NCBI GenBank assembly: GCA_002239025.1
Contig: MPNM01000020.1
Span: 1 to 51,307, forward strand
Length of the DNA stretch: 51,307 nt
DNA from: Chloroflexi bacterium bin125
GTDB lineage: Bacteria; Chloroflexota; Dehalococcoidia; Bin125
Direction: 5' to 3'
The translations under genes and the position numbers were made by a program. Below are positions 7,519 to 46,277 of this stretch, piece by piece (within the stretch, counting starts at the first letter, position 1; each line of letters begins with the position of its first letter). The notes below the pieces were generated by a model. The model did no database searches, had not been told where the DNA came from, and worked only from the letters and a program-made list of their open reading frames with translations.

Positions 7519-7783
7519 TTGCCGCGATCTCGCCTCTTGCCTATCGGACGGAGAGGGAATGGTTGCCATCCCGCCTACAGATAGGCACGAATGACAACGC
7601 GCCTGGCAGATTCTTGTTGGACCATCACATGTTCCTCGGCCTCCATTCCTCCAGGAGAACGCTCCAATGGTCCATTTACTTTGAAAGCAGTTCTCGAAGG
7701 TCGCACCTTGTTGAGCCGCAGTGCGCAAACGGACGGCGTGGCACTTGGAGGTCGTCGCTGCGGGCGGCCGATACCATTTGCTC

Positions 7784-18982: not shown

Positions 18983-19071
18983 TGGTAGGGGCGACAGGAA
19001 TCGAACCTGTAAGTCACCTGGGATGACAGCGGTTTGACAGACCGCCGCGTTTGCCATTTCGCCACGCCCCC
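18983..19071 (-). tRNA. Class II (leucine-type) tRNA with GUC anticodon
   Basis: The cloverleaf is complete: a 7-bp acceptor stem closed by a G-U pair, a 3-bp D stem with a GG-containing loop, a 5-bp anticodon stem, an 18-base variable region that forms its own 4-bp stem, a 5-bp T stem with TTCGATT loop, discriminator A and an encoded CCA. The D arm and long variable arm are those of leucine tRNAs. The 7-base anticodon loop is CTGTCAA (19034-19040), giving anticodon GUC (19036-19038), which reads aspartate codons. Ordinary tRNA-Asp has a short variable loop. Either the anticodon has mutated, or this is an unusual tRNA. Confidence 0.85.
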
Positions 19072-28334: not shown

Positions 28335-28367
28335 GGTGGTCAACTGTTGCACACCCAGGTGACCACC
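28335..28367. promoter_or_regulatory. Inverted repeat upstream of the DruH-like gene
   Basis: GGTGGTCA (28335-28342) and TGACCACC (28360-28367) are perfect inverse copies 17 bases apart, 40 bases before the start codon. This is a possible operator or leader hairpin. Confidence 0.35.
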
Positions 28368-28406
28368 TATCTTCCAATTTGCACATTGACAGAAGGGACA
28401 AGCACG

Positions 28407-31400
28407 ATGCTGGATCGGCAGCAAGCGGTACAAGCGCTGGGAGAGTTGTTGGCCGCATATTGGTGCCTTGAAGGCTTGGGCGGCGCGGCTCTTCGCGCCC
28501 GACGTGGGCTCGAAATGGACCAAGATCGGGATGCCCTGATGGACTGGGATGCGGACGAGCTTGCTGCCGAGCGGCGCGAAGCTCAGACGCAACTGACCAG
28601 CTTGCTCGACGACGACGTGAGGTCTGGGCTCGCAGACCTGCTGTTCCGCGTGTCGGCCGTGACTGGCCTGTCCCCTGACGAGACGCAAGTGCAGCAACGA
28701 CTTGTGAATGACTACGGCCTTGGTGATGTCCTGCGAGTGCGGCCATTGTTGCGCGAAGTGGCCGGCCTGCTGAGGCCACGCAGTATCACCTTCTTGCTTC
28801 GTGGGCTGAGGGCCGTGGATGAAGCTGATCACATCTGGCGGCCTTACGATCACTGGAACACGGCGCTGTCCGAGACTGTCTTCAACAAGGAACACTCTGG
28901 CCGGTCGGTCTACCTCGATATCGAGCCAGAAATACTTCGGCGGGCGGCTGAGGCGATTTGGCCACCCCTTCACGACGCCGACGATGTCGTGGAGACAGGC
29001 CTTCGCCGCACTGTACGTCGCACTTGTGTCGGTCGACATTTCAATGCGCAGCCGAGTCGCAGCAAGGCAGGGAAGGAGAACATCGGCTTCGACACCCACG
29101 CTGAGCGAGTGGTCATTTGGCACGGCGAACGTCATGTGGACAACTCTGCATCGGACATACCGCCGCCTTCCATTGCGCTGTTAGCAGCGTGCTCACTCGC
29201 CGCAGAACGGATGCGCACAGACAGCGACAAGGCGGCCACTAACTACTACGGTCGTCTCGCAGAAGTGCTTGACCTCACCGAGGAGCGCGCGTCCCACTTG
29301 GGAGGCAAGTACCGCGAGCACGCATTGTTGCTCTGGGAGAGCCTGAACGTCTGGTTGCGAGACCTCCATGGTCAGCGGGGATTGCCGACGGCTGTGTCGT
29401 TCGGGCACCAGCGATTCGTCAGTTTGCCAATCTCGCAAGCACTGATCCGCGCACAAGAGCGCGATCGCTTGTCTGAATTCTTTGCGCGCTACCAGTTCAA
29501 TCCCGGTCAGCAAGTGGCCAGAGACGACATGGAGGGGATGCTCGGCCACTGGATTCCCAGTTCGGGCGCGTCAGGATTGCGAGATGTGTGGGGACGTGGC
29601 CCGGAAATGCGCCGTCGGATCGCCGACGTTGTCTGCACGGAGCTTGAGCACTGGACAGGTGAAGTATCGGTAGCGGCGTTCACGGGACGGCAGCAGCGAT
29701 CGCTTCTCGTGGCTGCGACCTGGTACGAGGAACCAGAAGCGGAGTTTGCAGCGTTTCTCTGCGTGCGCTCTTCAGAGTCGGAAAGCCTCAGCGGTGAGTA
29801 CCGGACTGACAGTGGTAAGGACGTACGAGTCCAACGTGACCCTGATGGCTTGCTGACCCTGAGCTCCGGCGAGGGCGACCCGCTGCGCGAGCGGGCGCTA
29901 GTCGAGGCGGCTCTCAAGGGCGGGTTGCATCTCGAACACAAGACACTCGATGTCACGCTCTCACTCGCCCAGCAGCAAGTCATCGTGTTGCTCTTCGACC
30001 AACTGCGTCAGGTCTACATCCAGTCAGCGCATGTGGAGCTTGGGCGCGAGATGCTCCTATTGGTGGATGACGCTCTGACAGGCCAAGTGAGACTAGCTCT
30101 TGAAGAGTCGGCCGAGGATGGTTTCAGCGTGGCGGCGCCAGAGGTTCACAGTCTGTCAGCACGATGGACGCTGTTCAGCAACGTGCGACTGAATTCGTTG
30201 CCGTCTGTCGCGGGCGAAGACCTTCAATCGCTGCGACCGCTATCACGGACCCAAGTAGAGCTCGAAGGCGGCGTTCAACTGACAGATGGACGTTGGCATT
30301 CCCAGGCGCCGCCGTCGATCATTGCCGTTGATGGGCACAGCCGATCATTCAATGTGACGCTGCACAGTCAGTCCAACCTGGATGAGAAACCGCGTGATCT
30401 CGGCACGCACGCTGGACAGGCCAGTATTGCGTTGGCTAGTCGTGAGCTTGCCGACGGCGACTACCGCATCGTTCTAACTGAGGAAGGCGGGGCCGAGATC
30501 ACGTCACGCGCGCTCAAGTTGCGTTCAGGCAGTTCGGCGCACCTCGATCCTCCACAGTCATCGAGCGAGGATCTGGCACACCCGGCGACTCCCACGTTTT
30601 CACCCCGATCGGCCCTTTCAGCAGGTCAGGTGTGCGAATCAACAGGCGACACACTGCAAGGCGCAGTGTTTGATCATCGTTCAGGCCTTCGGGCAGTGCC
30701 CGAGACGAGGCTGCGACCAGCGATGGGAGGCATGGAACCGTTTGAGTCCATCGAGTCTTGGTTGACGCGCGTGGCTGGCGAAGCAACAGATGCCGGTCTG
30801 CGAGAAGTTCAAAGTCTGCTGCGTCGGGGGCTGGTAGAACACCGGCAGGGCAAACTTGTCCTCACGGAAGCGGGCAAACGGGACATTGCATCGCGGAACA
30901 CGGGCAGGAACCGGAAAGATCGTCCAAGTCTGAGTTCGTCGAGGTCTCGAACCCTGAATGTCGATCTCGACCTCATCCTTGACGCACTCTCCGTGATCGG
31001 TGCGGGATCCTGGAACGCGTTCCGTCGACTGATCGACCACTCAGATGAGGAGCGCTACAAACCACACGAGGCGCTGCGGACGCTGCGTGCGCTGGGTTAC
31101 CTGGATGTCGAGGTTAACCATCGGAGCGCAGCGCCTCAGCAGTGGTCGTTGTCGCCGCCTGCATTGCTGGTACTGGCCACGAGAACAAGCGCAGTGTTCA
31201 CTGGCCGGAGGCCCCCAGAGCTAGTCGAACGGCTCATTGAAGCAGCCAGTGCTGAGGCCGCCGATGTGGTCCAGTCGGAGGCCGATGGTCGCCCCGCTCG
31301 AATCCAGCTCGATGCTGAACATTCCGGAGTGCTTCAGAACATCGCGAATGCTGTGGGGATTCCGCTGATCTTCGACCTGCCGCGCCGAATTCTCGAACGG

Positions 31401-31856
31401 ATGCCGACGATCCATGAGATCCTGGTAGCCCAGCCGGAGTTGTTCGTCCCCGACGAATGCACATTCGGGCGGTTCGACCGCGCCTCCAACAGTTGGCGCA
31501 GAACCGATGCCTCAGACGGGCGCCTCGCAGGCGGTTATCAGATTCGATTCCCCACGGGAGAACAACGCAACGCCGTTTGGACTGACGGCATCTGGCGAGA
31601 GTGCGGCAGTGCCACGGCCAAATATGCCGGTGCAGCCGCAGTCGGTGAGCACATCATGGCGTACGACGAAGAACGGCAAGAGTTGACGTGTCTGTTGGGC
31701 GCCAGGCCACCAGGGCTCTTTGAGCGAGCGCTGATTCTGTGCAGCGGAGAGCTTCCACAGACGCCCGGAGATCATCGATGCATCTATGGCAATGTGCCCG
31801 ACAACGTACACCGTTGGATCGCTGCGAAACTCGGGCCGGCTGGATGGAGGCGATGA
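28407..31856 (+). CDS. druH: DruH-like Druantia type III protein, 1149 aa
   Basis: A very large protein directly upstream of a DruE-type helicase, which is the two-gene layout of Druantia type III (druH-druE). The ATG at 28407 (MLDRQQAVQALGE) has AGAAGG 10 bases upstream and is preferred to the frame start at 28347. I see no catalytic motif, membrane segment or zinc site. A winged-helix-like part near residues 860-960 (SLLRRGLVEHRQGKLVLTEAG, LDLILDALSVIGAGSWNAF) suggests nucleic-acid contact. The stop codon lies one base before the next start. The assignment rests on size and context more than on motifs I can verify. Confidence 0.6.
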   Translation: MLDRQQAVQALGELLAAYWCLEGLGGAALRARRGLEMDQDRDALMDWDADELAAERREAQTQLTSLLDDDVRSGLADLLFRVSAVTGLSPDETQVQQRLVNDYGLGDVLRVRPLLREVAGLLRPRSITFLLRGLRAVDEADHIWRPYDHWNTALSETVFNKEHSGRSVYLDIEPEILRRAAEAIWPPLHDADDVVETGLRRTVRRTCVGRHFNAQPSRSKAGKENIGFDTHAERVVIWHGERHVDNSASDIPPPSIALLAACSLAAERMRTDSDKAATNYYGRLAEVLDLTEERASHLGGKYREHALLLWESLNVWLRDLHGQRGLPTAVSFGHQRFVSLPISQALIRAQERDRLSEFFARYQFNPGQQVARDDMEGMLGHWIPSSGASGLRDVWGRGPEMRRRIADVVCTELEHWTGEVSVAAFTGRQQRSLLVAATWYEEPEAEFAAFLCVRSSESESLSGEYRTDSGKDVRVQRDPDGLLTLSSGEGDPLRERALVEAALKGGLHLEHKTLDVTLSLAQQQVIVLLFDQLRQVYIQSAHVELGREMLLLVDDALTGQVRLALEESAEDGFSVAAPEVHSLSARWTLFSNVRLNSLPSVAGEDLQSLRPLSRTQVELEGGVQLTDGRWHSQAPPSIIAVDGHSRSFNVTLHSQSNLDEKPRDLGTHAGQASIALASRELADGDYRIVLTEEGGAEITSRALKLRSGSSAHLDPPQSSSEDLAHPATPTFSPRSALSAGQVCESTGDTLQGAVFDHRSGLRAVPETRLRPAMGGMEPFESIESWLTRVAGEATDAGLREVQSLLRRGLVEHRQGKLVLTEAGKRDIASRNTGRNRKDRPSLSSSRSRTLNVDLDLILDALSVIGAGSWNAFRRLIDHSDEERYKPHEALRTLRALGYLDVEVNHRSAAPQQWSLSPPALLVLATRTSAVFTGRRPPELVERLIEAASAEAADVVQSEADGRPARIQLDAEHSGVLQNIANAVGIPLIFDLPRRILERMPTIHEILVAQPELFVPDECTFGRFDRASNSWRRTDASDGRLAGGYQIRFPTGEQRNAVWTDGIWRECGSATAKYAGAAAVGEHIMAYDEERQELTCLLGARPPGLFERALILCSGELPQTPGDHRCIYGNVPDNVHRWIAAKLGPAGWRR

Positions 31857-31857
31857 C

Positions 31858-34800
31858 GTGACGGAAATGATTGCCCAGCCGAAGTTTGTCTACCAGCGTC
31901 TACGGGAGGCGTATCTCCGCTATTACGACACAGCGTTCTGGGTGCGCAATCGGTCAATCCGTGCTGAGCGCCGGCGTCTGCTCGAGGCCGAGAGGGCCAT
32001 CTTTCAAGAGCCGCTGCTTGAGCCGACCTTGCCGTTCCGCTTGGGAGCGTCAATTGCTGAGGTGTGCGACGCGATCGGGCTCAGTAGAGCCATCGCGGAA
32101 ACGCTCAAGCGCATGTTCTTTCTGGATCGGCAACCTGATGACTCGTCGTTCCCCCTTTACGAGCACCAGGCGCGGGCGTTTGAGATATCCGCTGGCGGAG
32201 CATCCGTGACCAATCCCGTCGTCACTGCGGGCACCGGCTCGGGCAAGACAGAGGCATTTCTGCTGCCTATCTTTGCGCGATTACTCCGCGAGGCGGAGGG
32301 CAATGACGTATGGACGCAAGAGACGTCGCATCGGTGGTGGGACTGTGGCGAAGCAGAGCCGTGGCGGCCGGTGCGATCGGAAGATGCGAGCCGCACCGCG
32401 GCCGTGCGGGCCCTGATTCTGTATCCGACGAACGCCCTGGTCGAGGATCAGATCACCAGATTGCGACGCGCTGTTTGGGCCGCGCGCGGCGAGGATAAAC
32501 GCGGTCCGCAGTTTTACTTCGGCCGCTACACGGGCGAGACCATTGGCGGTGCTCGTACTGCTCGCCCTTCGTCGTTGAAGGAACAAGTCGCCAAGCAAGC
32601 AGCGCGGGAACTCCAGGAGATGGCCCGAGACGCGCTCCAACTACGCCAGACAGGAATCGACCTGGAAGTCCGCGCCCAGTTCCCCGATCCATCGCGCGGG
32701 GAGTTGGTCACGCGATGGGACATGATCGCCACGCCACCGGACATCTTGGTCTCCAACTTCTCGATGTTGAACGTGATGTTGATGCGAAGTCTGGAGGAGC
32801 CGATCTGGGAGCAGACCCGGCAGTGGCTTGCTGACGATCCGTCGCACGCGTTCACGCTGGTGATCGATGAACTGCACCAGCAGCGCGGCACGGCTGGGAG
32901 CGAGGTCGCACTGCTATTGCGCAACTTGCTGCAGCGCCTGGGACTGGAACCGGATTCGCCTCAATTGCGCTGCATCGGTACGAGCGCGTCGCTCGATGAT
33001 GACCCTGCGTCCTCGGCGGAGTACATCGAACAGGTCTTTGGCGTTGACCGAGTGCGTTTCGAGGTGATCCCAGGAGTCCAGCAGGAGCTTGATCGCAATA
33101 GCCCGCGCCTGGATCGCAGGCGCTACGAGTTGCTCGCCGATCTCGAACGCGCCGAGCATGTCTCCTCGGAGGAGGCTGAGCAGCTGGCAGCGGCAATCGC
33201 GGCGGTCTGCGGATCACCAGTGAAGGCCAAGCGACTGAGCGACATCGAACAAGCGCTGTTCGGTTCGCGCGACCCCGACTCGGCGGCGATGGACGGTGTT
33301 CTCTCAGTCCTTGCCGCTCGACCGACCGCAGCGGGCGGTATCGGCATCCGGGCGCACATGTTCATCCGCAACGTGGTCGGCATGTGGGCCTGCAGCAATC
33401 CTGCGTGCTCGGCAGTTGACGCTGAGTTCCAAGACCCTGAGCGTCGGATTGGCAAACTGTACCTCCGGCCGCGGCCGTCCTGTGCTTGCGGAGGGCGAGT
33501 GCTGGAGCTACTGCGCTGCGACCAATGCGGTGAAGAATCGCTGGGCGGGGTCGTAGTCGAGCAGGGCGGAAACGGTACCTACTACCTGGCGACCGACGAG
33601 CCTGAGTTCCCATCTCGGCTGCACCCACTCGTACAACAACGCCGCTATCGGAGCTACATGTGGTATCGGCCGTTTCTGCCTGAGACAGAGCTCAAGTCAT
33701 GGAAGCACGGTGGCGTCGAGCTAGCATTCATGCCGGCGCGGTTGGATCCTGAACTGGGGCTGTTGCGTCGGGCGGACAGACGCCGGACAGACGGGGTGAT
33801 GTTGAGCGTTGGTGCAGACCCTGAGGGACGGCCGATCCCAGCTCTGCCTGAACAATGTCCGGGTTGCAGCGCCTCGAGGCGGAATCCAAAGCTGAACGTC
33901 TTCTTTCGCGGAGTGGTGAACAGTCCCATCCGTGCGATGCGGACTGGCTTTGCACGTGTCACCCAAGTCGCGCTCGATGCGCTGGTGCGAGAACTGGAGA
34001 GAGATGGTGAACGGCAAACGATTGTATTTTCCGACAGCCGTCAGGACGCTGCGGTCGCAGCCGCAGGGATCGAACTGAGTCACTTCCGCGACCTGATTCG
34101 CCACTTCGGTGACAAGCTTCCGTCTCAGCAACGTTCGCTTGCCGATCTCATGCGTGCCGCGGCCAATGGTGAGACGTTGGCGGACGACGAGCAGCTGCAG
34201 CTGAAGGAAGGGATGACCAATCATCCACGAGTGTGGGGCGCGTACGAGTTTGGCCAGGAGTCTCCGCAAGGAAAAGAGGTCATTCGAGAGTTCGAGGAGT
34301 CGCAGGCTGCGCTGGATCGGCGGTTGCCATGGAATGAACTGCTGCGCCGTCTGGAACGCCACTTGGTCGGATTGGGAGTCAATCCAGGCGGACCCAGGCC
34401 AACGTTTGCTGCTTGGGGTCCAGGTGGAGAGGATGGCTGGTGGACTGCGTATCCGCCTCCCTCGTCCGTGCCCGGCGCCTGGAGGCCGCGCGGCAAAGAT
34501 TCAGCGCAGGAGGAGCAGCGTCAGCGTGTGCGAGATTTCAGCCTGTCGCGCTCACTCTTCGAGGCGGCCTTCGATTTCACTGGACGAGACTTTGAGTCGA
34601 TTGCGCTGGGCTGGGTCGAACCGATCGATCTTGATCCAATACCCCAGCTCCAACTCGCCGGCGACGCTGGCGGAGAGGTGATCCGCAGCGCCATCCGGAT
34701 CCTTGGTCGGCAGGGTCACTATCGCGGTGCGACCTATTTCTACGGCGTTGACTCCATGCCTAGGCCGCTGCGAGATTACCTCGCAGCGGTTGCGGAGCTG

Positions 34801-37254
34801 CACCGCCGCGACGCTGAAACACTGCTTGATGGGGTTGAGCGAGTCCTGCGGGACACTGGAGTGATTAACGATCAGTGGGAGCTCGACGCTAGCGCAATCC
34901 AGATGCTGCGCTGGAATGAGCAGGACAGCAGCCCGATGCGCTGCCTACGTTGTTCGCAATTGCATCTGCATGGGTCGGCTGGCATTTGCACGGGTCGGAA
35001 ATGCAACAGCGACCAGCTTGCAGAAGACACCGAAATCAAATCGTCGCGAGGTACGGAGTGGGCGGGCGATTACTACGAGTGGCTTGCTACGGAGTCAGCG
35101 TTCCGGCTACGTGTGGAGGAGTTGACCGGTCAGACCAAACCGCTGGCCGAGCAACGTCGACGGCAGCGATACTTCAAGGCCGCCTTCCTGCCCGAGGAAG
35201 AGCATTCCTTGAGCCACGGCATCGATGTGCTCAGCGTCACCACGACGATGGAGGTGGGCGTCGATATCGGCAGCCTGCGCTCGGTCGTGATGGCGAACAT
35301 GCCTCCGCAGCGGTTCAACTATCAGCAGCGTGTCGGGCGTGCTGGTCGACAGGGTCAACCGTTCTCGTACGCCCTGACTGTGTGCCGCGATCAGACACAT
35401 GATGACTTCTACTTCAACCATCCTGATCGAATCACCTCGGATCCACCGGCGCCTCCGTATCTGGACCTCCAGTCCACACGAATAGTGCGTCGCGTCGTCA
35501 ATGCGGAAGCACTGCGTCGGGCATTCAACTCTTTGTCCAAGTCGTTTGACGGCGGGCGCAACGTACATGGGGGATTTGGCGCAACTGAGGACTGGCCCAA
35601 ATGGCGCGAACGGATCCACCGTCTTCTGAGCGATGTAATCGACAACGAGGCGATAGTGGGGCGGCTGTGCCAGTACACCGGTCTCGATCCGAGCGACCAG
35701 ACACAGCTTGTCTCGCTGGTGCGCGAGCGCCTAGTCGAGGAGATCGATGAAGCCGTTGCGAACCCGTCCTATCGACATGAAGACCTGAGTGAACTGCTTG
35801 CCAATGCCGGCTTGTTGCCGATGTTTGGATTTCCTACTCGTGTGCGGTCGCTGTATTCGAGAGTGCCAAAGAGCGCTCGCGAAATCGAAAGAGCCCAGGT
35901 GGCGGATCGGGACATCGAGGTCGCGGTCTCCAGCTTTGCGCCCGGATCTGAGGTGATCAAGGACAAGCACAAGCACACGGTGGTCGGCTTCGGACATTGG
36001 ACGCGTAAGGGCAACCGTGCTGAACCGTCGTCCGAACCGCTGGGTCCGCGGCACACGCTGTTGAGCTGTGCCTTGTGCGGAGCGGTTCAAGAACACACAG
36101 AAGGCGGCCCGCATCGGTGTCTGGTATGTGAGGAGGCAGTCGAGCCGATCACGATGTACGAACCGCAGGGATTCGTGACGGACTTTCGGCCTGCGGACTT
36201 CGACGATCGCGTCGAGCACGGGCCGTCAGCCAAGTGGCCAAGGCTGGGCGTAACGCCGGCTGGGCGTCGTGAAGGCGAAACCAGCACTCTGAGATATGGA
36301 GTCTTCGATGCAGCAGACGTCTACACGATCAACGACAATCACGGTCGCATGTTCCCGCTACGTCGGGACGGGTCAATCTGGATTGCGTGTGACCCCAGCC
36401 TTTACGATGAGCCGCCGCGTGACCTAAGACTGAACCTCGGCGATGCAGAAGAGTCAGCTGCAATCGGCTCGATTCGACGTACCGACGCGCTCACACTGCT
36501 GCTGACAGAACTCGATTTGCCAGGAGGCATCGGGCCGATTGCAACTCCAGTGGGTTCCAATGCTCCGCTGCAGCCGGGACTGGCGGCGTTGTTGTCTTAC
36601 GCTGCGCTGCTCAGAGTCACGGCGGCTCAGCAAATCCTTGATGTGCGAATGGAAGAGCTCAATGTCGGCCTGCAACCAACCCCCTGGGATGGCCGTCTGA
36701 CGCAGCGCATCTTCTTCGCCGATGACTTGGCCAACGGCGCCGGCTATGCGACATATCTCGGACGGTCTGACGTGCTGCCGCGATTGCTCCGTGAGGCGGC
36801 CGCCCTGGGTCGCGAGTTCGCCCGCGGGTCTCATGCAGAAGATTGCAGAGGCTCTTGCCCAGATTGTCTGCGCAGCTACGACAATCGGTGGCTGCATTCA
36901 GCCTTGAACTGGCGTCTGGCACTGGACGTGGCCGAACTAGCACTTGGCAATCCGCTCGACGAACGCCGCTGGCTCGACGACGCAGCCGTTTCGGTGAGGC
37001 AAATGACAGCGTCTTCAAGACTGAACTGCGAAGCTGCCGCAGGACTGCCAGCGCTTCGCAGCAGCGGAAGCGGGCGCTGGGCAATCCTTTGTCATCCGCT
37101 GTGGCCAACGGAACAAGCCTCGTGGATCAAGGAGCAGAAAGAAGCGGTTGCCCATGCGAGACACAACCAGGCCACGGATGTCCAGACAGTCGATCTGTTT
37201 TCGTTCGAGCGTCGTCCTGGGTCTGTCATGAGTTGGCTGAACGGCAAAGGATGA
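31858..37254 (+). CDS. druE: DruE-like DUF1998 superfamily 2 helicase, 1798 aa
   Basis: The start is GTG at 31858, with GGAGG 7 bases upstream and one base after the druH stop. Helicase motifs are complete: Walker A GTGSGKTE (about residues 125-132), LILYPTNALVEDQ, Walker B DELH (337-340), RCIGTSAS, IVFSDSRQDAA, then VTTTMEVGVDIG and QQRVGRAGRQG near residue 1156. Cys clusters occur in the middle (CACGG, CDQCGEES, CPGCSASR, CLRCSQ). The C-terminus has the DUF1998 signature CRGSCPDCLRSYDN, H and LNWRLALDVAELAL. Size and layout match DruE of Druantia anti-phage systems. No damage is visible, so the two-gene system appears intact. Confidence 0.8.
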   Translation: MTEMIAQPKFVYQRLREAYLRYYDTAFWVRNRSIRAERRRLLEAERAIFQEPLLEPTLPFRLGASIAEVCDAIGLSRAIAETLKRMFFLDRQPDDSSFPLYEHQARAFEISAGGASVTNPVVTAGTGSGKTEAFLLPIFARLLREAEGNDVWTQETSHRWWDCGEAEPWRPVRSEDASRTAAVRALILYPTNALVEDQITRLRRAVWAARGEDKRGPQFYFGRYTGETIGGARTARPSSLKEQVAKQAARELQEMARDALQLRQTGIDLEVRAQFPDPSRGELVTRWDMIATPPDILVSNFSMLNVMLMRSLEEPIWEQTRQWLADDPSHAFTLVIDELHQQRGTAGSEVALLLRNLLQRLGLEPDSPQLRCIGTSASLDDDPASSAEYIEQVFGVDRVRFEVIPGVQQELDRNSPRLDRRRYELLADLERAEHVSSEEAEQLAAAIAAVCGSPVKAKRLSDIEQALFGSRDPDSAAMDGVLSVLAARPTAAGGIGIRAHMFIRNVVGMWACSNPACSAVDAEFQDPERRIGKLYLRPRPSCACGGRVLELLRCDQCGEESLGGVVVEQGGNGTYYLATDEPEFPSRLHPLVQQRRYRSYMWYRPFLPETELKSWKHGGVELAFMPARLDPELGLLRRADRRRTDGVMLSVGADPEGRPIPALPEQCPGCSASRRNPKLNVFFRGVVNSPIRAMRTGFARVTQVALDALVRELERDGERQTIVFSDSRQDAAVAAAGIELSHFRDLIRHFGDKLPSQQRSLADLMRAAANGETLADDEQLQLKEGMTNHPRVWGAYEFGQESPQGKEVIREFEESQAALDRRLPWNELLRRLERHLVGLGVNPGGPRPTFAAWGPGGEDGWWTAYPPPSSVPGAWRPRGKDSAQEEQRQRVRDFSLSRSLFEAAFDFTGRDFESIALGWVEPIDLDPIPQLQLAGDAGGEVIRSAIRILGRQGHYRGATYFYGVDSMPRPLRDYLAAVAELHRRDAETLLDGVERVLRDTGVINDQWELDASAIQMLRWNEQDSSPMRCLRCSQLHLHGSAGICTGRKCNSDQLAEDTEIKSSRGTEWAGDYYEWLATESAFRLRVEELTGQTKPLAEQRRRQRYFKAAFLPEEEHSLSHGIDVLSVTTTMEVGVDIGSLRSVVMANMPPQRFNYQQRVGRAGRQGQPFSYALTVCRDQTHDDFYFNHPDRITSDPPAPPYLDLQSTRIVRRVVNAEALRRAFNSLSKSFDGGRNVHGGFGATEDWPKWRERIHRLLSDVIDNEAIVGRLCQYTGLDPSDQTQLVSLVRERLVEEIDEAVANPSYRHEDLSELLANAGLLPMFGFPTRVRSLYSRVPKSAREIERAQVADRDIEVAVSSFAPGSEVIKDKHKHTVVGFGHWTRKGNRAEPSSEPLGPRHTLLSCALCGAVQEHTEGGPHRCLVCEEAVEPITMYEPQGFVTDFRPADFDDRVEHGPSAKWPRLGVTPAGRREGETSTLRYGVFDAADVYTINDNHGRMFPLRRDGSIWIACDPSLYDEPPRDLRLNLGDAEESAAIGSIRRTDALTLLLTELDLPGGIGPIATPVGSNAPLQPGLAALLSYAALLRVTAAQQILDVRMEELNVGLQPTPWDGRLTQRIFFADDLANGAGYATYLGRSDVLPRLLREAAALGREFARGSHAEDCRGSCPDCLRSYDNRWLHSALNWRLALDVAELALGNPLDERRWLDDAAVSVRQMTASSRLNCEAAAGLPALRSSGSGRWAILCHPLWPTEQASWIKEQKEAVAHARHNQATDVQTVDLFSFERRPGSVMSWLNGKG

Positions 37255-38268: not shown

Positions 38269-39291
38269 TCAACGTGGTGGTACGTTCGGCAACAGGAATC
38301 CCAGTTCTTCGATGATTGTCGACAAAGACGGCTCCCCCACATGACTTGTAGGCTCACCTGGTTGGGGGCACCACACAAGACTGTTCTCATCCTTCACTGC
38401 AATGGAGCTGACACAGGAAAGGAAATCCCCCGGCATGTACGACGGATATGGGTTTTCGCTGTCTTCAAAGCAACAGATAACCATACTGTGCAGCATTGGA
38501 CTTTGGATGGATCCGCGGGCATGGCGAATTGGCGTGCCCCGATACTGGACCAACGGGAAGAAAGCAGCGGAAATGTGAGGATTTGCGAAGTATTGCCTTA
38601 GCGTGTTGTGAATGAATGCCTTTAGAGCCCAAGTAAAGTTGCCCAACACAAACCCGCTTTCGGGCAACGACTCGGCTCCTCCGCAGATTTCCAGATATGC
38701 TTTTGTGTCGTCGTAAAGACCTTCGGACAGGAAGTTTCGCAGTTTCCGAGAGTCAATCTGATCTCTGACTGTAAGAAGTAACACAAACACCCCTGGGCCT
38801 CCCCGGTCTTGATATGCGATCTTCTGGTCGGTTAGGATTTGCCGAATTGCTTCGAACCGCCACACTTTCTTTCCTTCCCTGGTGTCGATTCGGCTTGATA
38901 TCTCATCGCAGAAGTCCAGATTGTAAAGAGTGATCACTTCTTTCGGGTTGTAAGGTTGGCCGTCATAGTCTTGACGAAGTATGATTACTTCTTCCATAGG
39001 ACCGAAGAATGCACGTCCCGGGATTTCCAACAGGTTCAGGTTGCGACGAAGTTCGACGATGTTTCTTCTCCCGTCAGGGTCATCCTTAGTCTGCGAAGCT
39101 CGAACTTCAAAGGCAACCACTTCCTCAATCATGTCTCGCCAAGCGTTGATGTCGAGCAAGTCAACACCCGGAAGGCCCATATAGCGAAAGCGGAAGCCAT
39201 GGTCTTGATGGAGTCGCCTGAGCAGGGGCGTGTTCCATTGTTCCCTGACGATGCGCTTGGCAGAGGTATCAAACGGATTACGAACGGTCAT
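38269..39291 (-). CDS. Unknown protein, last gene of the radical SAM/GHKL operon, 340 aa
   Basis: Its ATG overlaps the stop of the upstream ATPase (ATGA), so translation is coupled. The protein opens with FRYMGLPGVDLLDINAWRD and continues with a conserved-looking block (EVITLYNLDFCDEISSRID). This is loosely like the methyltransferase-type fold of three-Cys-motif partner proteins (TcmP), which also pair with radical-SAM-like proteins, but the catalytic residues cannot be verified. The second half (VFVLLLTVRDQIDSRKLRNFL) is unknown. Base composition is lower in GC than the left part of the window, which suggests transfer as part of the operon. Confidence 0.7.
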   Translation of the reverse strand: MTVRNPFDTSAKRIVREQWNTPLLRRLHQDHGFRFRYMGLPGVDLLDINAWRDMIEEVVAFEVRASQTKDDPDGRRNIVELRRNLNLLEIPGRAFFGPMEEVIILRQDYDGQPYNPKEVITLYNLDFCDEISSRIDTREGKKVWRFEAIRQILTDQKIAYQDRGGPGVFVLLLTVRDQIDSRKLRNFLSEGLYDDTKAYLEICGGAESLPESGFVLGNFTWALKAFIHNTLRQYFANPHISAAFFPLVQYRGTPIRHARGSIQSPMLHSMVICCFEDSENPYPSYMPGDFLSCVSSIAVKDENSLVWCPQPGEPTSHVGEPSLSTIIEELGFLLPNVPPR

Positions 39292-40934
39292 GGGTTCTCC
39301 TCTAGGTAATCTCGGAGTTCTTTGATGACCTGAGAATACCTGTCGGCCGAAAGATGAGGTTTGAGAACGGTGTCGTCGAGGTGCTGTAGGAACCGCCGGA
39401 GATTACCTAGGTCTGCCAGACCGTATGCCTCCAAGAGTTCAACCAAATCCGCAGGGGCGTTCTCCTCACGCGCCAAATCAGCTAGGACGGGAGGTGTGGC
39501 CTCTCGTTGGACGGCCTTCACTACTTCCCGTTCAATCTTACGCCGGGTCCGGCGCTGACTACCTAGGGCTTCGCGAACAAATCGCTCTACTCCCTCCAGC
39601 ATGTCTTGCGTTGTCTTTAGACCGTCGGGATCTGCTTCCTGGAGCCTCCTTCTGTGAGGCTTCAGTCTGCGCTTCATGTCAGACAATTGAGCGTTGATGG
39701 CCAAGAGGTGTTCGCGATCCCGCTGGATTGCCGCAAGTTCTTTATTGTGCCCCATCAGTTCCGTTGCAACGTCCGCCAGTACGTCCTTTGCACGATCTAG
39801 TTCTTGGAGCTTGTTGGCCCAAGAATCGACCTTACGTGTGAACTTAGGTAAGGTCTCTGCGAAGATTTGGCTACGAGTGTTGTGTTCGAAATCACTTCGT
39901 CCAGCATTAGGGATCATGTCCGGATGTGTTACTATTACTTCTCCTGTGATTCTACGGCTATAGACGGTTCTTCCGAAGTATGGTTCAAGGTAGCGCCGGT
40001 CGCCGATTGAAAAGCCGAATTTCTTGAGTAGAAGGCCACGGATAGACAAATCCTTTATTGTCTCCCTGGCATCGTTCACACACACCCATGCAAATCCAAA
40101 GTCGTGTTTGCCTTCACGAATGTCAAAGAACTCGGGTTGGTGCAGGCCTCCGTGGCGGAAAACTGAATTGGTGTAGGGACGATACAGTTGTTGCGAGTGG
40201 TCTCCAATGTTGAGTATCAAAGGAATCACTCTGTAGTCTTCTTTCTGGAAACGCTCAGCAATGAGGTGACCGAACCTGAAGTCAGGGTTGAACGGCAAGG
40301 GAACGACATTTTGGAGATAGTCAATGACTGTGTCCCAATCATTGAGTCGGCGGTATGCGTCGGGCAACAAGCCAGTCATTAGAACTTTAGATCCATGATG
40401 GGGGATGATGTCATTGCGAGTGGTCTCCACATAGACGGACTCTTCTAACAGGCGTTGAAGATATAGACTGGGCGGTTTGCCTTGTGAGCGCCGCTCTTGT
40501 TCTGCTAGAAGTTCCAGGCGGATCTGCTTGAAATCAAAGAAGATTCGGTAGGTAGTGTCTGATTTTGCCGTCTTAGTGAAAACCTCTAGGGAGTCGCATA
40601 AGTTGAAGCCGCTGTATATGCCAATGCCTCGAAAACCGATGTTCACCATCGGGTTCTTTTCTGAAATGCCCAATCGCATGGCTTTTCTAGCGTCATCTGC
40701 ATTCATGCCCAAGCCGTCATCCAGGATTGATACGACGTCTGGGTCAACAGAAACTCGTACTTGGCTTGCATTGGCGTCTATGGCATTCTGAATGTATTCG
40801 CGCAAGCAGTCTAGGGTGTCACGATACAGGCCACGAGTTAAGATGGGAAGGAGGTCTCCTCCTATGTCTTCTCTCGAGAAGCGTTGGCGCGGTGGGGTTT
40901 GTGAGGCTGCGTCGTCTGATTGTTCTGTAGACAT
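39288..40934 (-). CDS. GHKL/Hsp90-type ATPase A, 548 aa
   Basis: The N-terminus carries the Bergerat ATP-binding fold: REYIQNAIDA (Glu46, Asn50), LDDGLGM (residues 71-77) and the lid motif GFRGIGIYSGF (100-110). This part resembles the ATPase domain of Hsp90, MutL and MORC proteins. Residues about 410-480 form a long coiled coil (DVATELMGHNKELAAIQ, LSDMKRRLKPHRRRLQE), as expected for a dimerising clamp ATPase. AGGAGGT lies 6 bases before the ATG, an ideal ribosome binding site. It overlaps the following gene by 4 bases. The relatively low GC suggests horizontal origin. Confidence 0.8.
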   Translation of the reverse strand: MSTEQSDDAASQTPPRQRFSREDIGGDLLPILTRGLYRDTLDCLREYIQNAIDANASQVRVSVDPDVVSILDDGLGMNADDARKAMRLGISEKNPMVNIGFRGIGIYSGFNLCDSLEVFTKTAKSDTTYRIFFDFKQIRLELLAEQERRSQGKPPSLYLQRLLEESVYVETTRNDIIPHHGSKVLMTGLLPDAYRRLNDWDTVIDYLQNVVPLPFNPDFRFGHLIAERFQKEDYRVIPLILNIGDHSQQLYRPYTNSVFRHGGLHQPEFFDIREGKHDFGFAWVCVNDARETIKDLSIRGLLLKKFGFSIGDRRYLEPYFGRTVYSRRITGEVIVTHPDMIPNAGRSDFEHNTRSQIFAETLPKFTRKVDSWANKLQELDRAKDVLADVATELMGHNKELAAIQRDREHLLAINAQLSDMKRRLKPHRRRLQEADPDGLKTTQDMLEGVERFVREALGSQRRTRRKIEREVVKAVQREATPPVLADLAREENAPADLVELLEAYGLADLGNLRRFLQHLDDTVLKPHLSADRYSQVIKELRDYLEENP

Positions 40935-40937
40935 TTG

Positions 40938-41138
40938 TTACCTCCTGTGTGCTGGTGTGTGTGGAATGAACGCTGCGCAGTGTGAGGGCTGCGGGCAGGT
41001 GGTCGACTCCATTGTGGCGAGGATGAGGTGGAGATTGCAAGAGGCAGGGATCGATTCGGTGAGCCGGTGGTCCCTACTGTGCGTATAGGTCACGACCGCT
41101 TCGGCGTGAAGTACTGAGAAGTGACCACTTGCAGGCAT
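40938..41138 (-). CDS. Possible small protein between the two ATPases, 66 aa
   Basis: The 217-base gap between the ATPase genes holds a frame from the ATG at 41138 with AGAGGT 9 bases upstream, ending 3 bases before ATPase A begins. The product has a Cys/His cluster (CPQPSHCAAFIPH) that could bind metal. On the opposite strand 40966..41088 encodes a 40-aa frame with CEGCG. Only one of the two, if either, can be real; the minus-strand one fits the operon. Confidence 0.35.
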   Translation of the reverse strand: MPASGHFSVLHAEAVVTYTHSRDHRLTESIPASCNLHLILATMESTTCPQPSHCAAFIPHTPAHRR

Positions 41139-41151
41139 ATGACTTACCTCT

Positions 41152-42768
41152 TCAGCTGGAGTTTGATTGAGTATCTGGTGATTCGGCATTAGTTGCTGTG
41201 TGCCGCCTTAGGGTCACCGCGGCCTTTGAATTGTTTATGGTTATCCGGTCGGGATCGGTCTCTGGCGTTCCCTGGTGGTTCTTGGACGTTTTTGCCATAA
41301 CCAGTTCAATCAGGTTCCTTGCAATGCCTGGCGACGGCGCGAGGGTGGCTAGGGCGCCAAACACCTTCTGGTAGATGACAACTTCCGAGGGGGAAATGTC
41401 ATCCAACTGCGGCGGGACCCTCCGATGGGAGAAGCTGCTCAGTTGGCTTTCCGCATCTTCGAGCCTCTCAAGTGTGCCACTTTCGACATCTCTTTGGAGG
41501 ATGCTTTCCTGAAGGTCCTGAAGTTGCTGCAATCCCTCGCGGACCAAGCGAGTCGAATCTTCCGCAGTGAGGAGACCGGAAATTGCGAGGGCATGGAGCT
41601 CCTCGACATTGGTCAATGCAGTAAGGACTTTCCTGGTACGGTTGCGAGCTGCCGACTCCCGCCTGCAAAGCGCGCTGATGTGGCGTAGCACCGGAACCAG
41701 GTGGTTTTCGAGGTTTCGCAGATGGGGACCAGGTTCAAAGTAGTCCCGCCTGGCGTTCGGAATGATCCGTGAATCTAGGATGTGCAGTTCCCCAACACAC
41801 CATCGGTTGAAGCGTTCCTCTGCGAAGAGGTCGTCGAACACCGCCTCTCCACCAATTTGGATGTTTCCTACTCTGGCCCTGATACCACGTAACCTGCCGT
41901 GTCTCGGGATCGCGCCCAGATAGGATGAGTGGGCGATCCAACCGATCGCCGCCTCGCCTGTGTCGTCGACGCTTGGAATGCGGACCTCCTGGAACTCTGT
42001 AAAAGGCACCTCCGTGTTGTTCGATAGCTGGACCGCTTGTCCGTGTGGTCTCTCTACAGGAACTGAGTCTCCGTCAAGTAACACCTCCAGTGTGAGCGGA
42101 AGTTCTTCGGCAGCGAACAGTCTCTCGACTCTCTCGGTGAAAGGAAACTCAGTGCCCAAGGGGACAGGGCACACTTCGCCTATGTAATCTCTTACCGCCT
42201 CGCGATTGAGCACTAGTCCCGCGGAGTGGCGCGCGACGTCTCCCAACTCGACCTCAAAAAAATGCTCTGGATAGTCCGAACCCGGCAGCGTCTCTATATC
42301 GACGCAGTCGAGAATCGCCCGGTCTAGTTCCGATTCCGTCGAGGCCAAATCGGGGAGCCTTTCGCTATGCCAGGTGATTCGAGTGACTGATTGTTCCGCG
42401 CAGGCGCGCGTTGAGAAAGAGACTGTCTTTGCATAGGCAAGGCCAGCCAGTCGGCCTACACCTCTGAAGCCCCTGTCTGCTCCGATTCTCTTGGAGCTAC
42501 GTCCAATGGGCAGCAATCGTTCCAGCGCTTCCTTTCGAGACATTCCGGGGCCGTCGTCCCGAATTCTGACTCGGCGCCCAGAAACGTCAATAGTGATTGT
42601 TACCCTTGCCGTTGCGACGAGTTCGCGCGCCGCAATCGCGTCGGCCGCATTTTGTAGGTACTCCCGGTACATCGATAGCGGGTCGCTATACATCCCGGTT
42701 GTCACAAGCCCAAGCAACCCAGCGCCTGAGAGCACGGGTGTTTCCTGAATGTCCAGTGAGTCAGGCAT
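41152..42768 (-). CDS. GHKL/Hsp90-type ATPase B, 538 aa
   Basis: A second Bergerat-fold ATPase, distant from ATPase A but with the same opening (GLLGLVTTGMYSDPLSMYRE): REYLQNAADA (Glu36, Asn40), RDDGPGM (residues 70-76) and GFRGVGRLAGL (100-110). The middle resembles the second domain of Hsp90-like clamps (DSRIIPNARRDYFEPG). A coiled coil follows near residues 390-450, then a Ser/Thr-rich tail. It begins 12 bases after the radical SAM gene. Two different ATPases in one operon suggest a heterodimeric clamp. Confidence 0.8.
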   Translation of the reverse strand: MPDSLDIQETPVLSGAGLLGLVTTGMYSDPLSMYREYLQNAADAIAARELVATARVTITIDVSGRRVRIRDDGPGMSRKEALERLLPIGRSSKRIGADRGFRGVGRLAGLAYAKTVSFSTRACAEQSVTRITWHSERLPDLASTESELDRAILDCVDIETLPGSDYPEHFFEVELGDVARHSAGLVLNREAVRDYIGEVCPVPLGTEFPFTERVERLFAAEELPLTLEVLLDGDSVPVERPHGQAVQLSNNTEVPFTEFQEVRIPSVDDTGEAAIGWIAHSSYLGAIPRHGRLRGIRARVGNIQIGGEAVFDDLFAEERFNRWCVGELHILDSRIIPNARRDYFEPGPHLRNLENHLVPVLRHISALCRRESAARNRTRKVLTALTNVEELHALAISGLLTAEDSTRLVREGLQQLQDLQESILQRDVESGTLERLEDAESQLSSFSHRRVPPQLDDISPSEVVIYQKVFGALATLAPSPGIARNLIELVMAKTSKNHQGTPETDPDRITINNSKAAVTLRRHTATNAESPDTQSNSS

Positions 42769-42780
42769 ATTCGCACGCCC

Positions 42781-44403
42781 TCACACGACCTGTGTGCCCT
42801 TTAGCGCGATCGCTTCATCGTGGTCGAACAGGCCGGCGTCTTCAACTACCTCGTCCTCATCTAGGTAGTCGCCGCTTGCAGTCATCTCCAACATAAGCCG
42901 ACGACCGTTTGTCTGCGCGTCCTCACTGGTGTCAAGACCGTGGAACATCATCAGACGTCGGAGGTGCCGATCGATCGTCTTGTCAGTTGCCAAGTCCCGG
43001 AAGTATCTTGAACCCATGCCGCTCCTGTTGGACGGATTCGATAGAAGATGAACGAATTCCGCCTCCTGGGGTAGTGAAAGCTGTCTGCGTAGGGACTCAT
43101 ACTCCTCCTTTTGGTCTCGTCCCTCGCCATCCTCAAAATATTCGCGATGGAAGATGAAGGCGTGAGGAAGCCTGAGAAGGCTCTCGAACTCCTCTTCGTT
43201 CTGACCATAGGCTCTCCGGAAAAACGGCGGGCTACCACTCACGACACCCTTTGTCGCCTGGAGCATTAGCTGGAAGGAACGGAGATAGTAGCGATTCCAA
43301 CCTTTGCCTACGTGTGATCTGTCTTTCAGGGTTACGGGCTGGTAACGCATCGGAAACGACCAGATTCGGATCCCTAGCTCTTCATTGAGGTCGATGTTGA
43401 GGCGCATCCGCTGGTAGAGATCCGCTGGAGTGTCCATGAAGTTGTAGAGCATATAGTTTGAAAGAGATGTAATCTGGTTTTGGGCTGCCATGCGGATTGA
43501 CCTTTCGTACACCTTTCTGACACCAATGTGATCGAATGCAATGCGCAGCGGGCTGATGCAAATGGTAGACATTTCTCGTAGGAACATGTCTGACTTGGCG
43601 AGGATTCGCGCGTCCACTCCCTGGTTAAAGTCGACGCGTCGCTTCGTCGGTCGTTCGCCATCTCTAGATAGTTTGGCACCTGGCGTAAAGCCAAGGTCAC
43701 GAATCTCGGCAATCACTTCCCTGTAGCGAGTTGAGGCTGCAATATTGTTGTCCATGAGCACGAGGTCCTTTTTCTCCCCGTGCCGTTTGGCCACTTCTTC
43801 GACAAGATTGGTCAGGGGTGGCATCTCGCGCTGGCCACCCTCCAGCTTCGGCACCCCGCAGAAAGAGCATGTCCTCACGCATCCGCGGGATGCGTAGCCA
43901 AAGTAGGCATCGTGTACCGGGTAGCTATAGTCGATGTCTTCAAGGATGCCGTAATCAGGGACTAACTCCTCAATTGGTGTGCCGGCTAGATCGTCGGCAC
44001 CGAACTCGAAGTCACTTGACGACAGTTCCAGAGCCACCGGTGGGGGACGGTCCAGCAGGCCCCTAACAAAGCGAACGCCGGCCCATCTGGGCTCTTTCAC
44101 GAAGGCTTCTTGCATGAGCGAGACTGCAATGCCACCCACGAACACTCGCTCGGGCTGGCCGCCGGCTGCACGTATGGCGAAATCTATTGCTGAGGCCGTG
44201 CGCTTCCACTCGAAGGTGAACAGCGTGGTGACATACACTCTGTCCCACGATCGTTTCAGCATTTCCTTGTTTTCGCCCTTAACAAAGGTGACATTGTCTC
44301 CTCGACCGGCGGGTCCGTGATAGGCGGCAAGCTTCATCAGGCCCAGCGGCGGGTATTTGTTGGGGTAGCCGGGTTCGATGAGCAGAATCTCCCGTGATCG
44401 CAT
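42781..44403 (-). CDS. Radical SAM protein, 540 aa
   Basis: The iron-sulphur cluster motif CxxxCxxC is present in ASRGCVRTCSFCG (Cys175, Cys179, Cys182). The N-terminus (EILLIEPGYPNKYPPLGLMKLA) resembles the cobalamin-binding-like domain of B12-type radical SAM enzymes, but no DxHxxG cobalamin motif is seen. After the cluster come LVLMDNNIAAS and other strands of the barrel; the C-terminal 150 residues are helical and unknown. GGGAG lies 8 bases before the ATG. It is the first gene of the operon with two GHKL ATPases and a partner. The substrate is unknown; a modification of protein or nucleic acid is possible. Confidence 0.85.
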   Translation of the reverse strand: MRSREILLIEPGYPNKYPPLGLMKLAAYHGPAGRGDNVTFVKGENKEMLKRSWDRVYVTTLFTFEWKRTASAIDFAIRAAGGQPERVFVGGIAVSLMQEAFVKEPRWAGVRFVRGLLDRPPPVALELSSSDFEFGADDLAGTPIEELVPDYGILEDIDYSYPVHDAYFGYASRGCVRTCSFCGVPKLEGGQREMPPLTNLVEEVAKRHGEKKDLVLMDNNIAASTRYREVIAEIRDLGFTPGAKLSRDGERPTKRRVDFNQGVDARILAKSDMFLREMSTICISPLRIAFDHIGVRKVYERSIRMAAQNQITSLSNYMLYNFMDTPADLYQRMRLNIDLNEELGIRIWSFPMRYQPVTLKDRSHVGKGWNRYYLRSFQLMLQATKGVVSGSPPFFRRAYGQNEEEFESLLRLPHAFIFHREYFEDGEGRDQKEEYESLRRQLSLPQEAEFVHLLSNPSNRSGMGSRYFRDLATDKTIDRHLRRLMMFHGLDTSEDAQTNGRRLMLEMTASGDYLDEDEVVEDAGLFDHDEAIALKGTQVV

Positions 44404-44474: not shown

Positions 44475-44713
44475 CGTGACCCGATTGTGACCCGCAATGG
44501 GAAGGCGATGGTTTGCGGTTCTTCGCGTTGAGGGAATGGCGCGCGAGGTTGGCCCCCGGTTGCCAGGCCGCACTATCAAGCTCGCGTGCGCGCTGCCGGC
44601 ACACGTTCACCTAGGGTCTTGAGTCGCTAATGCGCTGAACAGATAGGAGAGATGATGGTGCCGGTTTGCCCATCCCGGGTGCTCGGTAGAGTGTCATTCC
44701 TGCCCAACTGGAC
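44475..44713. other. No supported gene
   Basis: DNA between the radical SAM operon and the IS630 remnant. No ORF or clear signal is visible. Confidence 0.4.
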
Positions 44714-45862
44714 TGCCCGACGCTGGCGATCGGACTGAGTGCGGTGGAGAAAGAGACGCTAGAGCACTAGGCGCGCAGACCAAGCAGAGCGCAGCCGGAT
44801 CACCCTCGCGGCGGCGGCCAGGTTGGCGAGCACGGATATCGATGCGGCGCTCGGTTGCTGTCCACTCACGCCGGCAAGTGGCGGCGACTCTTCACTGAGC
44901 GCCGGCTGAATGGGCTGAGCGATGAGTCGCGTCGCGGCGGGGCGCGCACGATCGGCGATGAGCAGGTGGAAGCGGTGATCGTCAAGACGCCGGAACAACA
45001 ACCACGCAACGCGACTTTCTGGTCAACTCTCTCAGTTGCCGCCGAGAGGGGCATGTCGCAGCCCGCCGTCTCCAGGATCTGGCGGGCCTTCGACCTCAAG
45101 CCGTACCTCTTCGAGCAGTTCAAGCTGTCGCCGGACCCGCAGTTCATCCATATGGTGCCGACGTGGCCGGCTTCTATCTCAACCGGCCGTCCTCGGTCGT
45201 GCTATGCGAGGACGAGACGACCCAGATCCGAGTGCTCGACCGCGCGGCGCCAACGCGGCCGATCCTGCTGGGTCTGCCGCGCCGACAGACCCACGGCTAC
45301 GTCTATCACCGGGCCAGCAATTTCCACGCAGCGCTAGGTACTGCCCTGGCCATGTGATTGCCGACCTGACTCCGCGACACCGGGCCCGCGCGTTCCGGCG
45401 CTTCCTCAACCTGATCGGCGAAGAGGTGCCCGATGAACTCGCGTTACATGTCCTCCTGGACAACGTGGCCACCCACAGCACCGCCGGGGTCCAGCGATGG
45501 CTCCAGCGCTACCCCCGCTTCCGCTTCCACTTCACGCAGACCTACAGCTCCTGGATGAACCTAGTCGAGCGGTGTCTCGCCGAACTGACCACCAAGTGGT
45601 TCAGGCGTGGCCGAACGCTGGGTTGCCGACTGGAACAAACATCCGCGCCCCTTCGTCTGGCACAAGACCGCCGAACAGATCTTTGGCAACCTGGCCGGAC
45701 ATCTCAACCGCATGCCCGACTCAGGACACCAGTTACTCTCCCTGGAGGAATGGATCGACAAGTTCGAACGGCCGCATCACAAGCACCTGCGAGAGACGTG
45801 GCCATTGACGGAGCCAGGCACTGCAAGCACCATCTCTACAGCCATTCGAAGAAACAGGCGTG
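44714..45862 (+). pseudogene. IS630-family transposase, frameshifted
   Basis: Pieces in all three frames reconstruct an IS630 transposase: WRRLFTERRLNGLSDE, SQPAVSRIWRAFDLKPY and FKLSPDPQF, then AGFYLNRPSSVVLCEDETTQI (first Asp region), then LHVLLDNVATHSTAGVQRWL and FTQTYSSWMNLVERCLAELT (the second Asp and the Glu), and finally HPRPFVWHKTAEQIFGNLAG. At least three frameshifts and a TAG near 44771 make it inactive. Confidence 0.85.
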
Positions 45863-46277
45863 ATGAGAACGCCGTTCGCCGGCGCGGACTGTTGGATTGG
45901 CATCCCCTCTGCGCTAGCGTGGGCAACGCCAACGGAGACAACGCGCTACTGAGTGATTATCGACTTCCGAGGCGGCGATGCGGTCGACTTGCTCAATCGG
46001 CAAACGGCTTCGATCTCAAGCACGCCTAAAGGATCCGGCTAGCGAATTGATGCGACGATGAGATCGCTCAACTCGCCAAGCTGATTGAGATTGATGAGAG
46101 CGAGTTTATCCGCAACAGCAGATGTGGCGTCGTCATGGCAGTGTCACTCGAAGCGCTCAACATCAAAGTCGCATTGGAGTAGCCAGTGGGTTGGAACACC
46201 GACGGGACAAGGAGGCCACCTGGACGGAAGAGTTGCTCGCAGGACTTGGCTATGCGCGTTAGCGTTGGGAGTGTGGA
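45863..46277. other. No supported gene
   Basis: Decayed DNA between the IS630 remnant and the DUF4160 gene. A short stretch (KLIEIDESEFIRN, then GVVMAVSLEALNIKVALE) near 46075-46180 looks protein-like but has no clear start and ends in TAG. Confidence 0.4.

Follow-up and report, generated by a model that had tools for sequence, protein, structure and literature searches.

A radical SAM enzyme and an Hsp90-type GHKL ATPase, here called GHKL-A, form the fixed unit of a real, recurrent, mobile, and modular system. We examined this system from a window of 51,307 nucleotides of Chloroflexi bacterium bin125 (contig MPNM01000020.1), which is the whole stretch of DNA analyzed and in which a sequence-only reading had described an operon of four genes. 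Compared with that first description, the fixed unit proves smaller and the whole system larger: the core pair is invariant, and the modules that accompany it are exchanged. It is very probable that this is a defense or conflict system overall, and a mobile bacterial system with this core is apparently undescribed so far.

Organization of the window locus

The four genes lie on the minus strand, each with an ATG start and no internal stops. Core gene 1 (42781..44403, 540 aa) encodes the radical SAM enzyme, recognized from its ORF, its cysteines, and an AF2 model; GGGAG stands immediately 5' of its ATG. Core gene 2, GHKL-A (41152..42768, 538 aa), follows after 12 bp and was identified with Pfam as an Hsp90/HtpG-type ATPase. 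A spacer of 217 bp (40935..41151, assigned to no strand) separates it from GHKL-B (39288..40934, 548 aa), a second Hsp90-type ATPase found with Pfam and the first gene of the module that we call M5. GHKL-B overlaps by 4 bp the second gene of M5, which encodes the partner protein (38269..39291, 340 aa), a remote relative of the NF047698 family.

These genes are intact and placed and spaced exactly as the sequence-only reading had them. Yet its single four-gene operon is better divided: GHKL-B with the partner and GHKL-A with the radical SAM enzyme are best read as two modules, because of their GC difference, their 217-bp separation, and their different histories. GC content is 0.51 for the partner and GHKL-B, 0.57 for GHKL-A, and 0.55 for the radical SAM gene, all below the 0.61 of the window's left part, as had been observed. 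The spacer is the probable boundary between the core and the GHKL-B/partner module; no convincing promoter or terminator was found in it, and an Rfam scan gave no match in the operon region.

Just alongside the operon, and outside the system, are the Druantia genes that the earlier reading had suspected, both on the plus strand: DruE (31786..37254; PADLOC DruE2, 1559 bits) and DruF with a DruL-like C-terminal part (28347..31856; PADLOC DruF2, E 6.7e-132; DruL4, E 2e-23). The DruF- and DruL-like regions occupy a single 1169-aa ORF with a TTG start, upstream of DruE, which may represent a fusion variant of Druantia type II/IV. Since the window also holds a type IIG restriction-methylase (7721-11029) and a type II methyltransferase (21441-22733), the operon is located in a defense island. 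The stretch immediately 5' of the radical SAM gene, where many relatives have a DGQHR gene, contains degenerate transposase remains (44660..45863, plus strand), recognized by eye as overlapping, broken ORFs. Overlapping ORFs at 47431-48070 resemble, again by eye, a frameshifted transposase. Broken transposase remains on both sides of the operon are a sign of a mobile-element-rich region. ARAGORN annotates a tRNA-Asp at 18983-19071 whose 89 nt are long for tRNA-Asp; it is possibly a remnant or an integration site.

The radical SAM–GHKL-A pair is the fixed unit

At least 154 radical SAM relatives were found among 84,980 species genomes, and 80 of them were taken for analysis; the joint set of loci, from the window, plasmids, and genomes, numbers 88. 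GHKL-A is the next gene on the same strand in all 86 loci in which the next gene is sequenced, and in 36 of these the two genes share a 4-bp ATGA-type overlap. Searching 72,556 plasmids with the radical SAM sequence gave 12 full-length relatives (53-57%), and a GHKL gene follows the radical SAM gene in each of the seven records examined. With GHKL-A as the query, the same 12 records were recovered, plus one partial match. Among 385 genomes, every full-length GHKL-A is located beside a radical SAM gene. The idea of a standalone GHKL-A was rejected, the only stray in these genomes being a 105-aa fragment and the only one on plasmids the partial match just mentioned. The pair thus co-occurs strictly and constitutes the fixed unit.

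The window's full set of four genes is also found elsewhere. In one locus (L072), GHKL-B, the partner, the radical SAM gene, and GHKL-A all lie on one strand, and another (L024) has all four components together with a ParB/SNF2 cassette. The sequence-only reading would have been undermined had the four genes never occurred together elsewhere or had they constantly belonged to a metabolic pathway; neither is the case, as L072 and L024 show the joint presence and the flanks have no recurring metabolic pathway.

Exchangeable modules accompany the core

The modules come from a clustering of every ORF in the 88 loci, which yielded few shared families; the remaining flanks differ. At least one module is present in 85 of the 88 loci, and the other three are on contigs of 5 to 10 kb. 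Module M1 comprises a ParB-like protein, a small protein, an SNF2 helicase (a relative of ZorD and DpdE), and another ParB-like protein; the ParB-like profile has no match in the PDB. M2 is a short DGQHR protein encoded immediately upstream of the radical SAM gene, which it overlaps in most plasmids examined. DGQHR proteins accompany only part of the radical SAM loci; the short M2 type matches TIGR03187 over the cut-off (2e-44), and its nearest relative is DpdB (2.7e-17). M3 pairs a PIN_8 protein with a second GHKL in 23 of 23 cases, and M4 combines a NurA-like protein, a HerA-like protein, and a GHKL, its profiles matching HerA (E 4.5e-46) and NurA (E 0.066) of the same PDB complex, 7f6d. M5 consists of GHKL-B and the window-type partner, sometimes with a HerA-like ATPase (DUF87), and occurs in the window, L024, L053, L072, L078, and L073, where the partner is assigned from position and motif only. 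M6 is a long DGQHR protein, with a Swt1-type HEPN domain in one tested case.

In the plasmid collection, PIN (11 of 11 records) and ParB-like proteins (7 of 7) are confined to the 12 records that bear the core. Taking seven unrelated replicon groups, the joint occurrence of PIN and core by chance is of the order of 1e-28. Conservation differs between core and modules: between the window and L024, identity is 83% for the radical SAM enzyme and 65% for GHKL-A, but falls to 31% for GHKL-B and 29% for the partner. Likewise, L024 and a further locus (L026) are 84% identical in the radical SAM enzyme, whereas their three large M1 proteins share 41%, 47%, and 31%. These comparisons indicate that modules travel independently of the core, whose partners are exchangeable.

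No nuclease is recognizable among the window operon's own four proteins; PIN and NurA nuclease modules are found in its relatives. A search of the window genome for missing modules gave weak generic matches only for SNF2 and none for the ParB-like protein. Three DGQHR genes elsewhere in this genome were considered as the missing module and rejected, as they sit in unrelated cassettes. On two contigs of this genome (L143, G000:C15; L144, G000:C19), cassettes similar to each other consist of a DGQHR gene and then several small to mid-size ORFs, with no radical SAM or GHKL gene; they form a putative DndB-type cluster.

Two further observations concern module composition. In L053 (8722-9633) and L078 (17516-18355), a Gp37/Gp68-type three-cysteine protein, recognized by eye, adjoins the HerA–GHKL–partner module. 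An Azospirillum genome (G316) carries two versions of the system on contigs C50 and C54 (L096 and L054); one has M1 and a DGQHR protein, and the other has a NurA-like gene and a second GHKL.

The radical SAM enzyme and its phage relatives

The cluster motif C175xxxC179xxC182, by which the protein had first been recognized, is kept in 88 of 88 loci, and its three cysteines are invariant, phage members included. The match to Pfam PF04055 (E 0.0016) falls under the family cut-off. In the AF2 model, which is good (pLDDT 84.9), a Rossmann-like domain at the N terminus is followed by the radical SAM barrel, and the C-terminal domain is helical; with CxxxCxxC in a modeled partial TIM barrel, the protein qualifies as a member of the radical SAM superfamily and is predicted to cleave SAM reductively. 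VIA-align of the model gave its best matches to AprD4, MgmA, MiaB/MTAB, TsrM, and OxsB at Z of about 19-21, and viperin-like enzymes came low in the list (Z about 10.5). The substrates of the nearest solved folds are RNA, protein, peptides, and small molecules.

Class B-type enzymes (MgmA, TsrM, OxsB, and AprD4) and MiaB/RimO have the same Rossmann-like N domain and barrel. However, the window enzyme is only about 12-17% identical to them, has its own C-terminal helical domain, and differs in two motifs. The DxHxxG cobalamin motif was sought in its sequence and is absent; some relatives, such as TsrM, bind cobalamin without it. Moreover, no cysteine precedes C175, so the three N-terminal cysteines of MiaB/RimO are missing. 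A MiaB-type methylthiotransferase was therefore ruled out, since these cysteines would hold the auxiliary Fe-S cluster.

The window enzyme also matches the phage family phrog_9298 (E 1.8e-37). Members of this family belong to the same sequence family and have the invariant core residues in common, but they are about 300 aa long, and in those examined we noticed no neighboring partner GHKL. In several phages, these relatives adjoin DNA methyltransferases; in PV036431, the radical SAM gene overlaps genes for an N6/N4 and a cytosine methyltransferase. Short phrog_9298 proteins were seen in phages of Bacteroides, Oscillospiraceae, Marinitoga, and Methanomassiliicoccales (L116-L136 and L148-L151), often near ParB_N/N6-N4 methylases and PAPS reductase.

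The two GHKL ATPases

GHKL-A and GHKL-B are two diverged Bergerat-fold ATPases, as the sequence-only reading had it: both match HATPase_c_3 in Pfam above the cut-off (2.2e-14 and 3e-10), and they are 27% identical to each other (E 3e-25). To judge from their residues, the N box (E..N..D) and DxGxG are intact in both, with E36, N40, D43, D71, G73, and RGFRGxGR invariant in GHKL-A and E46, N50, D53, D72, G74, and G76 invariant in GHKL-B. They are closer to Hsp90/HtpG than to MutL or MORC. The nearest PDB entries are HtpG for GHKL-A (E 4.6e-13) and HtpG/TRAP1 for GHKL-B (E 3.2e-16), and the best 60 PDB matches of both are all of Hsp90/HtpG/TRAP1 types; single-sequence NCBIfam scans gave mixed weak matches.

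The two had further been proposed to form a heterodimeric clamp. Yet 37 loci that contain the ParB/SNF2 module have one GHKL only, and the two proteins differ in conservation between the window and L024, as described above. We rejected the heterodimer as a defining feature, with GHKL-A present without GHKL-B in many loci. An obligate A-B heterodimer is unlikely because modules swap independently of the core.

The partner protein

The partner had been described as a protein of no known family, and searches of Pfam and PADLOC gave no match. It scores 36.1 bits (4.6e-9) against NCBIfam NF047698 (PP_RS20740), whose cut-off is 200 bits, and we regard it on this score as a remote relative of that family rather than a member. 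Relatives of the partner are present in L024, L072, and L053; plasmids and viral contigs gave no match. Its profile matches the RNA methylase RlmI (E 0.019). Because the AlphaFold model has low confidence (42), its fold matches to methyltransferases serve as a lead only; together with the motif pattern and the RlmI match, they tentatively suggest a methyltransferase-like Rossmann fold.

The NF047698 family is named after a mutated Pseudomonas putida gene, its protein having been found in a furfural-tolerance screen (PMC9630843). Both true members found in sampled genomes have a cytosine-5 DNA methyltransferase and a GHKL ATPase alongside, as compact m5C methyltransferase–GHKL–NF047698 triads (L141:5894-10409 and L147:7098-11286). 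Rather than the generic effector first imagined, the partner is thus distantly related to proteins found beside GHKL ATPases and cytosine methyltransferases. The triads resemble the window in joining a GHKL directly to a partner from this remote family but differ in lacking a radical SAM gene. As an M5-type module stands with a methyltransferase in both genomes, the radical SAM–GHKL-A pair may take the place of the DNA methyltransferase. The triads themselves resemble a restriction-modification system without a recognized nuclease.

Distribution, mobility, and defense context

The system is found in at least 11 phylum-level groups and is chromosomal in many phyla. Complete versions reside on plasmids of cultured bacteria, for example pNL1 of Novosphingobium aromaticivorans and pR132505 of Rhizobium leguminosarum WSM1325, and seven contigs of a viral collection carry the core, M1 genes being present on six. 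Phyla are intermixed in the radical SAM tree, the window's clade being composed of Chloroflexota and Actinomycetota. Within phyla, occurrence is sparse: the system is present in 2 of 385 sampled genomes of the alphaproteobacterial class, one of which is the center genome, and among 301 genomes of the window's phylum a full-length close relative is present only in the window's own. Plasmid and viral carriage, horizontal spread across phyla, and module swapping bear out the suggestion of a mobile, conflict-type system beside Druantia. A Gammaproteobacteria bin (L046) and a Nitrospira bin (L048) have the same locus, with an identical radical SAM protein and the same flanking ORF lengths, reflecting either very recent transfer or contig mis-binning.

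Among the systems in the flanks of the loci are Lamassu, Mokosh, Shango, Uzume, type IIG, and candidate systems. Enrichment over controls, however, is not shown: the control regions are also defense bearing, the first lying on a CRISPR locus and the second having R-M genes, and for this reason we give no defense-island enrichment statistic.

Possible function of the system

A defense-type function is likely. Our preferred reading, to which we give a probability of roughly 45%, is a restriction-modification-like defense in which the core makes a mark, most likely on DNA, and the modules attack unmarked targets. A chemical mark would be installed by the class-B-like radical SAM enzyme together with GHKL-A, often joined by a DpdB-like DGQHR protein; ATP-driven cycling of GHKL-A would load or open the enzyme complex on its target; and the exchangeable modules would attack targets without the mark. 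In the window, the attack module would be GHKL-B with its putative Rossmann-type partner, and elsewhere it would be PIN–GHKL-B, NurA–HerA–GHKL, or ParB-like–SNF2–ParB-like. We favor DNA marking because of the triads, the DpdB-type DGQHR protein, the methyltransferase neighbors in phages, and the precedent of GHKL proteins in restriction operons. The modules are nucleic-acid machines (SNF2, PIN_8, HerA, NurA, and DUF87), which supports a restriction-like reading. However, the methyltransferase analogy comes from two triads only, and methyltransferases are common in phages. The lack of a recognizable nuclease in the window operon also speaks against this reading, as does the range of substrates of the nearest solved radical SAM folds, which are RNA, protein, peptides, and small molecules.

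The PIN and HEPN-bearing DGQHR modules are RNase-like and would fit RNA as well. The core may instead modify RNA (a tRNA, say) or a protein, perhaps a translation factor, with the modules acting when the mark is missing or removed in infection. The closest folds include MiaB/MTAB, which act on tRNA, and MgmA, a protein methylation enzyme, and Hsp90-type ATPases classically act on proteins. Yet the SNF2, NurA–HerA, HerA-like, and ParB-like modules indicate DNA, the DGQHR protein is that of DNA-modification systems, and the radical SAM enzyme lacks the N-terminal extra-cluster cysteines of MiaB/RimO; we find an RNA or protein substrate unlikely. A fixed core with interchangeable effectors is also typical of sensor-effector systems. 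There would then be no self-marking: GHKL-A would sense invader structures, and the radical SAM enzyme would make a small-molecule signal or inactivate a nucleotide or protein, as viperins or signaling systems do. Viperin-like enzymes do appear among the fold matches, but low, and the DGQHR/DpdB link, the replacement of a methyltransferase relative to the M5-related triads, and the large DNA translocases among the modules make such a mode improbable. A role outside defense, in plasmid or mobile-element maintenance, replication, repair, or metabolism, would agree with the frequent plasmid location, with HerA–NurA and SNF2 being repair proteins too, and with the NF047698 protein of the furfural-tolerance screen. 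It is hard to reconcile with the very patchy distribution (2 of 385 and 1 of 301 genomes), the chromosomal copies in many phyla, module swapping, and flanks that share no metabolic genes, and we consider it improbable as well.

Restriction-like DNA marking has a stronger form, which we hold to be possible but doubtful. The system would be a previously undescribed class of bacterial immunity: an Hsp90-type ATPase would drive a radical SAM enzyme that installs a new kind of DNA modification as self-mark, at least five interchangeable attack modules would read this mark, and the shortened radical SAM enzyme of phages might copy it. If the core marks DNA, radical SAM chemistry would serve as a mark of self and non-self, an Hsp90-like ATPase would be a working part of a restriction machine, and an orphan phage radical SAM family would be explained. 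If the substrate is RNA or protein, this would still be a modular immune-type system of wide phylogenetic range.

Comparison with known systems

The sequence-only reading knew of no named system with this composition, and we found none containing this core in PADLOC 2023, NCBIfam, Pfam, or the open-access literature, although an undetected description is possible. In PADLOC-DB 2.0.0 (2023), the radical SAM enzyme and the partner have no match and the GHKL ATPases have weak local matches only; nor does any Pfam or NCBIfam model put a name to the radical SAM enzyme or the partner.

The Dpd 7-deazaguanine system is similar in that a DGQHR/DpdB-like protein accompanies a modification enzyme and an SNF2 helicase related to DpdE, and both systems are modular and horizontally moved. 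Proteins of the DpdB type serve the insertion of modified bases into DNA (PMC12839542). However, the DpdA transglycosylase was not found in the present system, which has a radical SAM enzyme and an Hsp90-type ATPase in its place, and the window operon lacks DpdA, DpdB, and any DGQHR gene. The MORC/paraMORC operons described by Iyer et al. in 2008 are mobile and combine GHKL proteins with SF2 helicases, nucleases, and DNA methyltransferases (PMC2292703). The present system likewise associates GHKL ATPases with helicases and nucleases in mobile operons, but its ATPases are nearest to Hsp90/HtpG, and a radical SAM enzyme replaces the methyltransferase.
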